From Hydrocarboniclastica marina (GTDB lineage: Bacteria; Pseudomonadota; Gammaproteobacteria; Pseudomonadales; Oleiphilaceae), in contig NZ_CP031093.1 in assembly GCF_004851605.1 (NCBI RefSeq), positions 1,674,001 through 1,738,000 of the forward strand: 64,000 nucleotides of DNA, read 5' to 3'. Below, in pieces: positions 3,950 to 10,534 of the stretch (the first letter of the stretch is position 1; every line of letters begins with the position of its first letter). The position numbers and the translations under genes were made by a program. The notes below the pieces were generated by a model. It saw only the letters and a program-made list of their open reading frames with translations. It was not told the DNA's origin and did no database searches.

Positions 3950-5515
3950 GTGAAGCTTAGTATTCCCAAGGAAAGTCACGACAACGAGTTCCGCGTCGCC
4001 GCAACGCCCGCGTCGGTGCGTAAGCTTACCAAACTGGGCCATAGCGTCTTCGTCCAGAGCGGCGCCGGCGAGGCGGCCAAGTATCCCGACGAAGCCTATA
4101 AAGAAGCCGGCGCGGAAATCATAGCCGACGGCAAAAAGCTCTGGTCTGAGGCTGAGTTTGTCCTCAAAGTCAGAGCGCCCGGCAAAAATGAAACGTTGAG
4201 CGCTGACGAAATAGACCTCCTGCCGGACGGTGCCCATTTGCTGAGTTTCCTCTGGCCGGCCCAGAATCCAGACTTGCTGGATCGTCTGGCGAAAAAGAAT
4301 GTGACTGCATTTGCCATCGACGCTTTGCCACGCATCAGCCGTGCACAGAAGATGGATGCGTTGAGTGCGATGGGCAACATCGCGGGCTACCGCGCGGTCG
4401 TGGAAGCCGCGGGTCACTTCGGCCGGTTCTTCACGGGGCAGGTGACAGCAGCGGGCAAGGTGCCCCCGGCCAAGGTGCTTATCATTGGTGCCGGCGTTGC
4501 TGGGCTTGCCGCAATTGGCGCCGCCCGCGGTATGGGCGCCATCGTTCGGGCGTTTGACACCCGGTTGGAAGTGCGCGAGCAAGTCGAAAGTATGGGCGCT
4601 GAGTTCCTCGAGCTTGAGTTTGAGGAAGATGGCAGCGGCAGCGGGGGCTATGCAAAGCAGATGAGCAAGGAGTTCATCGACGCTGAAATGGCCCTGTTTG
4701 CCGAGCAGGCGAAGGAAGTGGACATCATCATCACTACCGCGCTTATACCCGGCAAACCTGCACCGCGGCTGATCAGTGCGGAAATGGTTCGGAGTATGAA
4801 GCCCGGCAGCGTCGTGGTCGACCTTGCGGCCGAGAAAGGCGGTAACTGCGAACTCAGCGAAGCCGATAAAGTCGTGGTTGCCAATGGTGTCAGCATCATC
4901 GGCTACACCGATCTGCCCAGCCGAATGGCGAGTGTATCCAGCGACCTGTATGCGACCAATCTGTTCCACCTGTTGGCCGAGCTTACGCCGGACAAAGACG
5001 GGGCAGTAAAAATTAAAGAGGATGATGCGGTTATTCGCGGCATTACGGTCACTCGGGGTGGGCAGGTCTCCTGGCCACCGCCCCAGCCCGAACAACCTGC
5101 CAAGCCAGCGGCGCCCGCGCCAAAGCCCAAAACCAGCCAGGCCAGTGCACCTGCCGAAAAAGGGGTTGGCAGTACAGCCTGGAAAGTGATCCTGCTGCTT
5201 GTGACCGTGATGGCTCTCTACGGTGTTGGCGCCTATGCACCGGAAAGCTTTTTGTCGCACTTCACCGTCTTTGTGCTGGCGTGTTTCATTGGGTGGCAAG
5301 TGGTCTGGAACGTGACTGCTTCGCTGCATACTCCCCTGATGAGCGTCACCAACGCAATCAGCGGCATCATCGTGATCGGTGCGATCATGCACCTGTCGCA
5401 AGCTGAGAATGTGGTTATCGGCTTGCTCTCGTTTGTTGCTGTTCTGGTAGCAAGTATCAATATCGGCGGGGGCTTCCGGGTTACCCATCGCATGCTGAAA
5501 ATGTTTCGTAAGTAA
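3950..5515 (+). CDS. pntA: NAD(P) transhydrogenase subunit alpha
   Basis: A 521-residue subunit of the inner-membrane enzyme that couples proton entry to hydride transfer from NADH to NADP+. Residues 1-380 are the NAD(H)-binding domain I, with the Rossmann motif [18 protein letters not shown] near residue 180 and the RQD-loop region following. A Pro/Ala linker (about 390-425) leads to a C-terminal part of domain II with four transmembrane helices. It is the fused E. coli-type alpha chain (510 residues there), not the split PntAA/PntAB form. The GTG at 3950 is chosen: GGAGGA is six bases upstream and KLSIPKE is the family N-terminus. pntB follows after 11 bases. Confidence 0.96.
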
Positions 5516-5526
5516 GGGGCGCGCAA

Positions 5527-6915
5527 ATGTCACAAGGACTGATCAGCGTGGCCTACGTGGTCGCGAGCATTCTGTTTATTCTCAGCCTCGGTGGGCTGAG
5601 CCATCAGGAATCCGCACGCCGCGGTAATATGTACGGCGTTATCGGTATCCTCATTGCGATTGCGGCGACACTCGCCGGGAGTTTTGACGAGGGCTGGGTC
5701 GCTACCGCACTTGCGATTGCTATTGGCGGTGCGGCAGGTATTGTCATTGCGAATAAAGTGGAAATGACTCAGATGCCGCAGCTTGTGGCACTGTTGCACA
5801 GCTTTGTTGGGCTCGCCGCCGTTCTGGTTGGTTTTGCCGGCTATGTTGAACCACTCGTGACAACATCTGGCACAGAGCACACGATCAAGCTTGTCGAGGT
5901 CTTCATTGGTATTTTTGTCGGCGCAGTTACACTGACCGGTTCGCTTGTCGCTTGCGGAAAGCTGGATGGCAGGATCGACAGCAAGGCACTGACCCTGCCG
6001 GGGCGGCATGTGCTCAACCTGATTCTGGTCGGTATCAGCATACTGCTGGGGGCGTGGTTCCTTGGCACTGATAGCATGGCGGTAGGGATACTCTGCCTTG
6101 TCGTCATGACGGCACTGGCAGCGCTGCTGGGTGTGCATCTGATCATGGCCATTGGTGGCGCCGATATGCCAGTCGTCGTATCCATGCTGAACAGCTATTC
6201 AGGTTGGGCAGCGGCCTCAATAGGCTTCATGTTGGGGAACGACCTTCTGATAGTCACGGGCGCCCTTGTCGGCAGCAGCGGGGCTATCCTTAGCTACATC
6301 ATGTGCAAGGCCATGAATCGCTCCTTCGTCAGCGTAATTCTGGGCGGCTTTGGTCAAACGTCCAGTAGCGCCGCGGCAACTGATAGCGATCTCTCGGTCC
6401 AGGAGATCTCGGTGGAAGATCTGTGCGAGGAACTTCGGAGCGCCGATTCCGTCATCATCGCGCCGGGCTACGGCATGGCCGTGGCACAAGCCCAGAATGC
6501 GATCAGCGAGATTACCCAGCGGCTGCGCAAGCAGGGGACAGAAGTGCGCTTTGCGATCCATCCGGTCGCGGGTCGGCTTCCGGGCCATATGAATGTTTTG
6601 CTGGCTGAAGCCCATGTTCCATACGATATCGTGCTGGAAATGGACGAAATCAACGCTGATTTTCCGAAGACTGACGTCGTGCTGGTTATTGGCGCCAATG
6701 ACACGGTAAATCCAAGCGCTGCCGAGGACCCAACCTCGCCGATCGCGGGCATGCCTGTGCTGGAAGTCTGGAATGCAAGGACTGTAGTGGTACTCAAGCG
6801 CGGCATGGCTGCGGGTTATTCCGGCGTCGAGAATCCACTCTTCTTCAAAGAAAACACGCGAATGCTGTTCGGCGACGCAAAAGAAAGTGCGGACCGTATA
6901 CTGAGTGGTCTGTAG
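5527..6915 (+). CDS. pntB: NAD(P) transhydrogenase subunit beta
   Basis: A 462-residue beta subunit, the usual length. Residues 1-265 carry about eight or nine hydrophobic helices of the proton-conducting domain II; a short polar linker follows, and residues about 290-462 are the NADP(H)-binding domain III, with [12 protein letters not shown] and [12 protein letters not shown] as the nucleotide-contacting loops. A ribosome site (AAGGGG) precedes the ATG, and the gene is 11 bases after pntA, so the two are co-transcribed. The complex supplies NADPH for biosynthesis and peroxide defence. No clear terminator directly follows; structured non-coding DNA lies downstream. Confidence 0.97.
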
Positions 6916-6937
6916 CCATAAGGGGTTGAATGTACAC

Positions 6938-6993
6938 GCCTTATCCAACATACAGGTGCTCCGTTCTTCAGTGGATACTCGTGTTGATAAGGC
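6938..6993. repeat. imperfect inverted repeat downstream of pntB
   Basis: The arm at 6938-6950 (GCCTTATCCAACA) is complementary to 6982-6993 (TGTTGATAAGGC) with one bulged base, enclosing 31 bases. It begins 22 bases after the pntB stop. There is no T-run, so it is not a standard terminator; it may fold in the pntAB 3' untranslated region. Confidence 0.4.
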
Positions 6994-7068
6994 TACCGTA
7001 TACAACGCTTTGCGATTCACTGTGGTCGAGGAGAGCCTCACTGCCGGCTGAGGGCAAATAAGGTAACC

Positions 7069-7101
7069 GGGAAGCGATCGCCAATTGGGCGATCGCTTCC
7101 C
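7069..7101. repeat. perfect 14-bp inverted repeat
   Basis: GGGAAGCGATCGCC (7069-7082) and its exact complement (7088-7101) enclose the five bases AATTG. As RNA this is a very stable hairpin. No T-run follows on the plus strand, and only a weak TTATTT follows on the minus strand. It separates the pntB 3' region from the putative small RNA and may act as an insulator, a transcript 3'-end stabiliser or an atypical terminator. Confidence 0.7.
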
Positions 7102-7170
7102 GTCCCAGCGGCTTCAAGCGTTAGATGACTTATACTTAACTCGGTTTTAACCGTTACTGTTGTTATCGTT

Positions 7171-7313
7171 AAAGGGTCAGGGATTGACAGGGAATGGATT
7201 GAATTAGGGAACAATGACCCCAACGGACTGGGGCTGAGCAAGGAAAAGGACTGAAGCTTAGGGAAACTAATTTCGAGGCGGAGCATGCGTTGCAGGCTCC
7301 GCCTTTTTATTTG
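7171..7313 (+). ncRNA. putative CsrA/RsmA-sequestering small RNA (RsmY/RsmZ/CsrB type)
   Basis: Nine GGA triplets occur between 7181 and 7282. Four sit in the loops of consecutive simple hairpins: stem 7176-7179/7185-7188 with loop GGGAT; stem 7198-7201/7212-7215 with GGA in a 10-base loop; stem 7218-7221/7230-7233 with loop AACGGACT; stem 7258-7261/7267-7270 with loop GGAAA. Two more (AAGGAAAAGGA, 7241-7250) are in an unpaired linker. A rho-independent terminator closes the transcript. GGA displayed in hairpin loops is the known binding signature of CsrA/RsmA, and RNAs of this size with repeated GGA are the antagonists controlled by the GacS/GacA (BarA/UvrY) system. TGTTAT at 7161-7166 could be the -10. 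I do not see a clean GacA box upstream. The 5' end is estimated. No credible protein is encoded. Confidence 0.72.
7276..7313 (+). terminator. rho-independent terminator of the putative small RNA
   Basis: AGGCGGAGC (7276-7284) pairs with GCTCCGCCT (7296-7304) around an 11-base loop and is followed by TTTTATTTG. The stem is GC-rich and the T-run immediate. Confidence 0.88.
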
Positions 7314-7478
7314 TCCTTTAGAAAACGTGTAGGCGGTGAAAGCGCCGGTGCTTACCGGTGGGCCTGTCTCTGGGCCGATGCGTCTGTCTCGGGGTGTGAG
7401 TGTCAGCGATTCTGCTTGGGTGCAGGGCTACGCAATCGCATATGCCCGGACTCAGCTGATACGGGCAAAGCGCTGCTG

Positions 7479-8501
7479 TCAGGAAAAGCGGCTCTGTTCG
7501 AGCAGTTGAGCGACCACTTCCAGACCCTCCAGCCCGGCAATATCTGAAGCGAGCAGAGGTAAATGGGTGAGTGGGAGTTGACCCAGGGTGGCATCGATCT
7601 CAGCCAGGTAACGCTTCTCCTGTTGCCTTCGGGCCTGTAGAAAGCTTCCGTCGACTTCAGCGGGAAGCACCCGGTTGACGATCGCCCCGGCTACCGCGAT
7701 GCCGGCTTCGCTTAGCGCCTGTACAGCCCGGGATGTCTCAAGGATAGGAAGGCGCTCCGGGGTGAGGACGAAAAGGAATCCACTCTGACTGGCATCCGCA
7801 AGCATTCGTCTGGCCCTGAGAAAAAGGCGCCGTCTGTGCAGGAGGGACGCGGCGATATCGGCGGTGCGCTTATCTGTGCTGCTGGCTTCCGGTTCGTCTT
7901 TGTCGAGCATCGAGGTCACATCACGGCCGCTGTTCGGCGAAAGGTGCCGAAGCACTTCTCCCAGTTCCCGCGATTTCTGGTTGTGCCGGAGCAAACCGTC
8001 GGTCCAGGCGGCCATAGCTTCAGGAAGACTCAGCAACCTCAGCGTGTGACCAGTCGGAGCGGTATCAAAGATAATCAGGTCGTAGTCCTGATCAGTCTGG
8101 GTAATCAAACGCGAGATGCGTTCCAGCAAAGCAGCCTCCTGGGCACCCGGCGACAGCCGGGAGAGGCGCATCTGGCGTTCCAGTTCGGGCATCATCTGGG
8201 GAGACGCAAAACGCCGCATTTGTGCCATAACCCGTCCTAGATGCGCATCGACCTCTGCATCCGGGTCCAGTTCAATGGCGTCGAGGTCTGGCAATACACG
8301 GCGGGGCTTGTCCGTCAGTTGACGATCAAAGGCATCACCCAGGCTATGAGCCGGGTCAGTTGAGACCACGAGCGTTTTGCGGCCGCCCCGGGCCGCGGTA
8401 ATGCCTAGCGCCGCGGCCACGGTAGTCTTACCCACGCCACCCTTGCCACCGACCCAGAGTAGTCTCAGCTTCAACAGGTCCTGCAGCAGATTCTCAGACA
8501 T
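7479..8501 (-). CDS. ArsA/Get3-family ATPase
   Basis: A 340-residue cytosolic P-loop ATPase. The N-terminus has the deviant Walker A GGKGGVGKTT (about residues 16-25), then the family signatures STDPAHSLGDAFD (about 45-57) and DTAPTGHTLR (about 145-154). It is a single-copy ArsA unit, the size of Get3-like proteins, not the tandem ArsA of arsenite pumps, and no ars genes are near. I start it at the ATG at 8501 (MSENLLQ), eight bases after the small CC-ending gene; in-frame codons further up lie inside that gene. It is third in a cstA operon, so a role in handling a membrane or metal-linked client of that transporter is more likely than arsenic resistance. Confidence 0.88.
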   Translation of the reverse strand: MSENLLQDLLKLRLLWVGGKGGVGKTTVAAALGITAARGGRKTLVVSTDPAHSLGDAFDRQLTDKPRRVLPDLDAIELDPDAEVDAHLGRVMAQMRRFASPQMMPELERQMRLSRLSPGAQEAALLERISRLITQTDQDYDLIIFDTAPTGHTLRLLSLPEAMAAWTDGLLRHNQKSRELGEVLRHLSPNSGRDVTSMLDKDEPEASSTDKRTADIAASLLHRRRLFLRARRMLADASQSGFLFVLTPERLPILETSRAVQALSEAGIAVAGAIVNRVLPAEVDGSFLQARRQQEKRYLAEIDATLGQLPLTHLPLLASDIAGLEGLEVVAQLLEQSRFS

Positions 8502-8509
8502 GACGCCCG

Positions 8510-8800
8510 CTAACAGCAGCGAAACTGGTCGAGCGGTGAACGTTCCATGCCCATCCGCTGGTGCCATTCGTGGAAGCGTTCCAGCATCAGGGGCTGGAGT
8601 TCAAGGGTATAGTAAGCCGCGGGGTTTGGCATGCCGAGCATCTCCGAAAACACCAGCATCATGAAGAGGTCATCCTCGTCGCGACGCGCCCTTGCGATAG
8701 CGCCCCGGTAAGGGGCTGCATAGGCCTCCTCCGCAAAGTAGCGCGCCCGGCGCAACCAGGCACCTAAAGGCCTCAGCGATAGATTCGGACCTGATGTCAT
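8510..8800 (-). CDS. small protein ending in Cys-Cys (cory-CC-star type)
   Basis: A 96-residue soluble protein whose last residues are FRCC followed directly by the stop. The body contains EAYAAPYRG, DEDDLFMMLVFSE, NPAAYYTLEL and FHEWHRRMG-like segments (here FHEWHQRMG), which I recognise from the family named cory-CC-star for its invariant C-terminal Cys pair; function unknown. Its ATG overlaps the cstA stop by four bases (ATGA) and the ArsA-family ATPase begins eight bases later, a tightly coupled trio. The terminal CC could bind a metal or be a site of modification; that is inference. Confidence 0.75.
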   Translation of the reverse strand: MTSGPNLSLRPLGAWLRRARYFAEEAYAAPYRGAIARARRDEDDLFMMLVFSEMLGMPNPAAYYTLELQPLMLERFHEWHQRMGMERSPLDQFRCC

Positions 8801-10485
8801 CGATCTGCCTCATGCGCTCCGCCCGCGATATCCCTGCGGTTGCGGGAAAGGGCTGAAGCTGATTCCAGCGCCACGAACACAGCAGCGACCAGAACCACCA
8901 GGTCCAGCGACAACAGGAACCAGTTCTCCTGAAGGTAAAAAGTGTGCAACTGCGTAAGCAAGGCGAATAAGGTCATTACCAGCAGGAACGCCAGTGGTAA
9001 CAGCGTGTACCATACCGGGCGCCGGTTTCGCACCAGCATCACGGTGATGATCAGTAGGGTCAGACCCGCCAGTAACTGGTTGGTTGTGCCAAAGAGCGGC
9101 CAGATAGCCATGCCGCCCGACCCGGAAGCGCCACCGGCGCCGAAAGCGAGGGCAATGCAGCTGCCTACCGCGAGCAGGGTCGCGGGCAAAGGTTTTTTCA
9201 TCCAGCCAATATCGTAAATATCGCCCCATTCCTGAAAGATGTAACGCTGCAGGCGCAGCCCGGTGTCCATGGTTGTGCCAGCGAAAAGGGCGGCCATTAC
9301 TGTAAGCAGCGTGGCTGCCACTACCGGGTCCAGGCCAATACCACCGGATATGAGATAGGCCCCGCCGTTAACGAAGGCGTTGACCCCGCCGGCGCCAAAT
9401 GCTGTGTAGACCGCTTCCCAGTCAGCAAAAGACGCAAACCCAGCAGTCGCGCAGAGAATCGCTGCGAGCGCCAGGGAGCCTTCTCCAACTGCACCAAAAA
9501 AACCGACGAAGCGAAGGTCTGTCTCGCGGTCAAGTTGCTTGGACGTCGTACCTGATGCGACCAGCCCGTGAAAGCCTGAAATAGCGCCGCAGGCTATTGT
9601 CACGAACAGCAGTGGCAGGAGGGAGGGCGTCCCTGCCGGGAGGTTGCTGTTGATAGCAGGGGCAACTATGGCGGGGTTCGAAATTATGATCGCGCCGTAG
9701 AGGATGATCAGGCCCACGAACAACTGTAGCCCATTAATGTAGTCGCGGGGTTGTAGCAGCATCCAGACTGGAAGCAGGGAGGCAATCGCGGCGTAGCCGA
9801 ACAGTATCAGTATCCAGAGGGCTTTGTTAGACAAGCCCAGGGCAGCCTCGGGTAGCTCAATTGGCACGACCGGCCCGATGCCTATCAGTGCATAAAGCGC
9901 AGCGACGCCCACCACAGACACAATAAGCAGATTCGCTTTACGGCGATAGATCAGCTGGCCGATCACTAGTGCTACCAGTATGGCACCCCAGACCGGGACC
10001 ACAGAACTGGGAAAACTGACCATCAGGTTTGAGATGACTACGGCGAAGACCGCGTTGACCATGAGCAGCACAAGAAAGATGACGATCATGAAAAGCGTGC
10101 GTGCACGCCGGCTGACGACCTCGCCGGTCAGCGCACCGACCGATTTGCCGCGGTTACGTACACTGGCCCAGATTGCGCCGGCATCATGGGTTCCGGCGAA
10201 AAATACTGTGCCTAAAGTGACCCAGAGAAAAGCCGGCAGCCAGCCCCAGATTACGGCGATGGCGGGGCCAACGATGGGCGCCGCGCCGGCGACAGAAGTG
10301 AAATGGTGTCCCCAGAGTACGAACTTGTTGGTGGGCACATAGTCGACGCCGTCTTCCATTGCCCGGGCGGGGGTAACGAAGTCCGGGTCGAGCCGGTAGA
10401 TTTTTTCGGCAATAAACCTGGAGTAGAAGAAATACCCCAGCGCCATCGACCCAAGGCCGGCAAGCAATACGAATATCGCACTCAT
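8797..10485 (-). CDS. cstA: CstA-family transporter (carbon starvation protein)
   Basis: A 562-residue inner-membrane protein with about 15 hydrophobic helices. The N-terminus (YRLDPDFVTPARAMEDGVDYVPTNKFVLWGHHF) and the following GAAPIVGPAIAVIWGW and FAGTHDAGAIW blocks are typical of the CstA/BtsT family, which imports pyruvate and peptides. It is clearly shorter than E. coli CstA (about 700), matching a shorter subgroup often followed by a cory-CC-star and an ArsA-like ATPase as here. CGGAG precedes the ATG. It heads the three-gene minus-strand operon. Regulation is not visible except a hairpin at 10535-10575 upstream. Confidence 0.9.
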   Translation of the reverse strand: MSAIFVLLAGLGSMALGYFFYSRFIAEKIYRLDPDFVTPARAMEDGVDYVPTNKFVLWGHHFTSVAGAAPIVGPAIAVIWGWLPAFLWVTLGTVFFAGTHDAGAIWASVRNRGKSVGALTGEVVSRRARTLFMIVIFLVLLMVNAVFAVVISNLMVSFPSSVVPVWGAILVALVIGQLIYRRKANLLIVSVVGVAALYALIGIGPVVPIELPEAALGLSNKALWILILFGYAAIASLLPVWMLLQPRDYINGLQLFVGLIILYGAIIISNPAIVAPAINSNLPAGTPSLLPLLFVTIACGAISGFHGLVASGTTSKQLDRETDLRFVGFFGAVGEGSLALAAILCATAGFASFADWEAVYTAFGAGGVNAFVNGGAYLISGGIGLDPVVAATLLTVMAALFAGTTMDTGLRLQRYIFQEWGDIYDIGWMKKPLPATLLAVGSCIALAFGAGGASGSGGMAIWPLFGTTNQLLAGLTLLIITVMLVRNRRPVWYTLLPLAFLLVMTLFALLTQLHTFYLQENWFLLSLDLVVLVAAVFVALESASALSRNRRDIAGGAHEADR

Positions 10486-10534
10486 AAGTAGCTCCGGTGT
10501 TTTTTATTGTTACTTCCGGGCTAAAGCATAACCC

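Follow-up and report, generated by a model that had tools for sequence, protein, structure and literature searches.

Csr RNAs are a well-known kind of molecule and, in many gammaproteobacteria, help to set the growth-mode switch. CsrB and CsrC of Escherichia coli (Rfam RF00018 and RF00084) titrate CsrA through repeated GGA motifs, and RsmZ/PrrB of Pseudomonas (RF00166) combines ANGGA hairpins with a terminator. According to one report, the sites for GacA lie at -75 for rsmY and at -196 for rsmZ, and sponge RNAs that are not activated by Gac include RsmW of Pseudomonas aeruginosa (a 120-base form with 7 GGA motifs, suggested to originate from a 3' UTR) and CsrC of Yersinia pseudotuberculosis (PMC4950607). 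Single marine genomes can contain several CsrA sponges whose repeats are A(N)GGA or GGA, namely Aln1a-c of Alteromonas, which lie together in one 404-base region, and Pf1-3 of Pseudoalteromonas (PMC5864184 and PMC11882849, respectively). In the open-licence literature, titles and abstracts among the matches listed held no description of Marinobacter Csr RNAs, and no work joining the Oceanospirillales with covariance models was found.

The window analysed here is the whole stretch of 64,000 bases from Hydrocarboniclastica marina, and positions refer to it unless a locus is named. Bases 7174-7313 very probably encode an sRNA of the CsrB/RsmZ type which titrates CsrA, a shortened and dispersed duplicate of a family RNA (class B, below); the duplicate probably answers to another signal. 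The motif cluster, the family-model match, the covariation, the missing GacA box and the genes for CsrA and Gac-type partners were all computed. The predicted RNA is like RsmZ/PrrB in its ANGGA hairpins and terminator but has neither an RF00166 match nor a box; repeated GGA and predicted CsrA titration are shared with CsrB/CsrC, whose models are far longer (356 and 255 positions), and RF00018 gave no match over the H. marina genome at E 0.01. Compared by description, the RNA is akin to RsmW, from which it differs in the 3' UTR origin suggested for the latter, and to Aln1a-c and Pf1-3, which belong to other lineages and, in the case of Aln1a-c, are not dispersed. New are a model of the family, a distant box at fixed spacing and the two boxless duplicates. 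The features of the locus are as follows (MFE, present in the minimum free energy fold; R2 and A5, the family model and alignment described below).

Ending at 6915, plus strand: pntB, left neighbour of the GGA element.
7130-7141, plus strand: TTATACTTAACT, common to the region upstream of a second extra copy (L251); a candidate site for a regulator, or a candidate -10 of the stationary-phase type.
7164-7169, plus strand: putative weak -10-like TATCGT, at the same position as TATAGT or similar in relatives (compared by eye).
7174-7313, plus strand: predicted CsrA/RsmA-titrating small RNA of about 135-140 nt, its start placed by alignment to relatives (R2 match at 7174-7266, 8 ANGGA, fold z -2.8).
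7176-7188, plus strand: helix 1, GUCA/UGAC, its loop holding a GGA motif (MFE; helix 1 of the family alignments).
7179-7264, plus strand: eight ANGGA motifs, starting at 7179, 7189, 7194, 7206, 7223, 7240, 7246 and 7260.
7218-7233, plus strand: helix 2, CCCCA/UGGGG, a GGA motif in its loop ACGGAC (MFE; covarying in relatives).
7234-7261, plus strand: helix 3, CUGAGC/GCUUAG, enclosing AAGGA and AAGGA (MFE; equals the AAGC/GCUU helix of relatives).
7260-7264, plus strand: AGGGA 3' of helix 3, near-invariant in relatives (alignment A5).
7275-7308, plus strand: rho-independent terminator, 10-pair stem running into TTTTT (MFE, letters checked).
7479-8567, minus strand: ArsA-type ATPase gene, right neighbour of the GGA element.
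8513-8800, minus strand: small gene flanked by cstA and the ArsA-type gene, giving no match to Pfam at E 1e-5.

Analysis confirmed the GGA cluster and showed it to be specific. All nine GGA triplets reported in the first-pass annotation are present in 7161-7313 (starts at 7181, 7191, 7196, 7208, 7225, 7242, 7248, 7262 and 7280); the first eight have the ANGGA form and the ninth lies inside the terminator stem. In 7161-7274 the count of GGA alone was not in excess (8, against a mean of 6.3 in dinucleotide shuffles, 1000 of 5000 of which reached 8), whereas the 8 ANGGA motifs compared with a mean of 2.0 and were reached by 0 of 5000 shuffles; the signal is therefore the ANGGA form. When the best 110-base stretch of the intergenic region (6916-7478) was taken, the largest count among 5000 shuffles was 6. 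The best ANGGA cluster was 4 in the rest of the 64 kb window (both strands), and a 400 kb sample of this chromosome likewise gave no more than 4 per 110 bases.

The MFE fold of 7174-7313 was equalled by 2 of 200 shuffles. Three GGA-bearing elements appear in it, but not the fourth of the four GGA-loop hairpins that had been proposed, and the two GGA triplets earlier assigned to an open linker are present but fall in the large loop of 7234-7261. The proposed terminator was borne out, with 7275-7284 paired to 7296-7305 and the 3' side entering TTTTT at 7304-7308; a simple terminator scan (loops of 3-8) did not list it and listed one terminator on the opposite strand. Two long-range helices were added by the fold (7201-7207 with 7267-7273, and 7192-7198 with 7306-7312, the latter using the T tract); these are absent from the family structure and backed by no model used here. 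A sigma-70 scan gave no promoter at the RNA.

A search of the window with all families of Rfam 15, at gathering and permissive thresholds, gave no relevant match, so that the earlier suggestion of recovering the RNA with models such as RsmY, RsmZ and CsrB was not realised; over the H. marina genome the RsmY, CsrB and PrrB_RsmZ models gave nothing above the curated threshold, and nine class A or class B loci (defined below) matched no relevant family. Among relatives, one weak CsrC match was obtained, in genome G035. Weak RF00195/RF00166 matches contained a GGA cluster by eye at L084, L126, L127, L128, L131 and L090; those at L087, L089, L091, L130 and L132 (the last in the H. marina genome) contained none and were rejected. 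Comparison of the window DNA with 58 genomes, among them no other of its own genus, gave two short matches besides itself. The first (L002) looks protein-coding by eye and was discarded, and the second (L003) led to tandem GGA RNAs in G035, which lie exactly 1000 bases apart (L258, minus strand, 6852-6928 and 5852-5928). A core-pattern search matched 79 of 163 family genomes, but the 29 loci returned besides that of the window held no more than 5 ANGGA per 110 bases, and the pattern was rejected.

Relatives were reached by way of the GacA-type box (pattern TGTRAG-N6-CTYACA), which had seven sites in the H. marina genome, one of them followed by a GGA RNA (L137, termed class A). This RNA occupies about 1316-1518 of its locus on the minus strand (G000:C1, about 2528573-2528775), with the box TGTAAGAGATATCGCACA; its terminator loop bears AGGGA, and a nearby ORF (L137 1779-2381) is presumably a REP-associated transposase. 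The L137 DNA matched 22 of 163 family genomes, including its own, and the loci included both class A RNAs and RNAs of another type, termed class B. Model R1 was built from four class B sequences of g12, the largest genus of the family, which is taken to be Marinobacter; it matched 141 of 163 family genomes and, in H. marina, the loci L250 and L251, with the window not found at E values up to 1. Because R1 missed the window, a broader model (R2) was built from alignment A4, consisting of 14 class B sequences found with R1, 12 of them from outside g12 (one being L250), with three helices written by hand and the window, L251 and G035 left out. A4 replaced an alignment (A3) in which part of helix 2 had been misplaced between g12 and the others.

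R2 found 7174-7266 with 41.9 bits (E 5.2e-8, filters off), the runner-up of 20 matches in the window scoring 10.5 bits, and by this significant match the predicted RNA is assigned to class B. Over 31 sources R2 also found L251 (50.4 bits), L179, L197 and the two tandem RNAs of G035 (28.4 and 22.4 bits). On the RF00166 member L126 it gave just 13.6 bits (E 0.13), and common descent with RsmZ is not established. Pairing holds in 95.9% of the cells of A4, with changes on both sides in 6 pairs and 13 cells; the pairing percentage, pairs, cells and covariation score were each reached by 0 of 500 shuffles, while the further pair types were unexceptional (90 of 500). Sliding the partners lowered pairing to 31-53%, with at most 4 pairs and 6 cells. 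Helix 3 hardly varies, and so the covariation speaks above all for helix 2, in which 5 of 7 pairs have changes on both sides with the window excluded. Alignment A5, which was fitted to R2 with the window included and as a fitted alignment leans towards its structure, gave the same picture, the window RNA sharing at most 66% identity with any other row. These comparisons support the view that the predicted RNA matches a family RNA whose GGA-loop hairpin covaries.

R2 matched 150 of 163 family genomes (133 of the 142 good ones), with a single copy in 145, two in G146 and G151, three in G112 and H. marina and four in G006. The 13 genomes with no match at E 0.001 belong to g12 (six), g3 (two) and g4 (its five, including G035, whose tandem RNAs gave just the lower scores above). 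No plasmid match was found. In G006, four class B modules follow one another in tandem within fewer than 500 bases (L263 1737-2209), and very long runs of ANGGA hairpins were noted by eye in GGA RNAs of three family loci (L178, L189 and L196). All 30 class B loci compared in g12 had a vanZ-like gene upstream, and 29 of them had a methyltransferase gene downstream; at 10 loci of other genera the figures were 7 and 8. The three places in H. marina, identified from separate R2 runs, are L250, L251 and the window. L250 lies at the standard vanZ-like/methyltransferase locus, and neither gene was found near the window RNA (5001-9500) or L251. The genome holds the standard class B copy, the class A RNA with its own box, and two extra copies, with the window RNA probably a shortened, dispersed duplicate of an RNA kept once in most family genomes and L251 a second duplicate.

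Upstream control was then compared across the class. In g12 the GacA-type box ended 166-168 bases before the model start at 30 of 30 loci (29 distinct in sequence), and at 14 of 14 further loci, including L250, it lay 159-189 bases before the start, with no more than 2 mismatches in every case. The two RNAs of G035 have it 101 bases before the model start (1 and 2 mismatches), and in L137 it stands 58 bases before the first ANGGA, with 1 mismatch. Class B shares a distant site with rsmZ (about 167 bases, against -196), and the near and far boxes of L137 and class B are similar to the rsmY/rsmZ pair described in PMC4950607. Such a box is usual for this type of sRNA, though not universal. Within 300 bases upstream of the window RNA the best match had 4 mismatches, as good as in 86 of 100 shuffles, and upstream of L251 it also had 4 (80 of 100).

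The first-pass annotation had itself remarked on the lack of a clean GacA box, and in this it was correct; it nevertheless proposed a Gac-controlled antagonist. That the RNA titrates CsrA under GacA by way of a diverged or distant box is unlikely. The boxes of the related RNAs would favour it, as would the partners present in the genome: a UvrY/GacA orthologue (58% identical to E. coli UvrY) adjoining a uvrC-like gene, and a BarA/GacS-type kinase of 997 residues with sCache, HisKA, HATPase, receiver and Hpt domains, encoded among pdxJ-, cysM- and RlmD-like genes (neighbours named by eye). Against this stand the two boxless copies and the box of 44 of 44 other class B loci (extra copies and G035 excluded), which in g12 keeps its fixed distance, and Gac control of the window RNA is not supported by these comparisons.

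Since the window RNA and L251 are both boxless and have TTATACTTAACT in common, they probably respond to another signal. The alignment score of the two stretches around TTATACTTAACT, which were spotted by eye and tested afterwards, was reached by 3 of 2000 shuffled pairs, and no third copy of the 12-mer occurs in the roughly 512 kb of the genome searched. The element presumably resembles a sigma-S -10; its distance upstream of the RNA, however, is 54 bases greater in L251 than in the window, so that a regulator site is as likely. A difference of 54 bases is close to five helical turns, as would be expected if one activator acts at two positions. Tentatively, GacA may have been replaced in both copies by another regulator or sigma factor reading TTATACTTAACT, a rewiring that would feed a second signal into the same CsrA pool.

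The predicted RNA starts 258 bases 3' of pntB on the same strand, and it could be asked whether it is a processed 3' UTR of pntAB with CsrA sites, like RsmW behind PA4570 of P. aeruginosa, for which such an origin is suggested (PMC4950607). This is quite improbable here: an inverted repeat (7068-7102) whose 15 pairs are all perfect, with a loop of 5 bases and without a run of T, lies between and may be the 3' end of pntB or a roadblock, and the -10-like site and shared upstream element suggest an independent promoter. Nor did R2 find a relative behind pntB at the loci of seven relatives (five named Marinobacter, one Porticoccus MAG and one Cellvibrionales MAG); conservation of the GGA loops across this gap in Marinobacter, proposed earlier as a check, was not seen at the five loci. 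Judged by PntB, the closest named relatives are Marinobacter (82% identity to Marinobacter sp. HL-58). R2 likewise gave no match at six loci of ArsA-like relatives, and synteny behind pntB or beside ArsA-like genes revealed no counterpart RNA. The placement by pntB and cstA, described earlier as new, was indeed found nowhere else in the relatives tested, but across these seven and six loci it carries no conserved meaning.

A decayed, silent duplicate (an RNA pseudogene) is similarly improbable. The window RNA is shorter than the class B relatives read, has lost the box and has the second lowest R2 score of 33, yet all eight ANGGA motifs, the three helices and the terminator have been kept. A chance purine-rich stretch, which the unremarkable count of GGA alone might suggest, is hardly conceivable with an ANGGA count and a family-model match so far above chance.

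A CsrA-titrating sRNA at 7174-7313 is well supported by computation, and the titration of CsrA first proposed for the element is supported by the ANGGA cluster, the family-RNA match, the terminator and the one CsrA gene of the genome, a homologue on which that reading depended. We infer that the RNA is transcribed, binds CsrA and is under alternative control. It would be made from its own promoter and end near 7308-7313, its paired ANGGA motifs, in hairpin loops and a short linker, would bind several CsrA dimers, and the titration would free CsrA-repressed mRNAs. With R2 and the fixed box distance, Csr RNAs can be directly found and tested in this family, which is taken to include Marinobacter, and the two boxless extra copies provide a natural experiment on the way in which the signal controlling a sponge RNA changes.

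Two further observations concern CsrA and the genes around the element. Near csrA of H. marina there is a tandem repeat of about 183 bases (L092 1-550), with ORFs at 6, 189 and 372, of which the first two are identical. The minus strand carries the 3' neighbours of the predicted RNA, which are, in order, the ArsA-type ATPase gene, the small gene and cstA; 5' of the cstA start lies ACACCGGAGC (10491-10500, minus strand), in which a GGA overlaps the likely ribosome site, an arrangement that we take to be that of CsrA targets.
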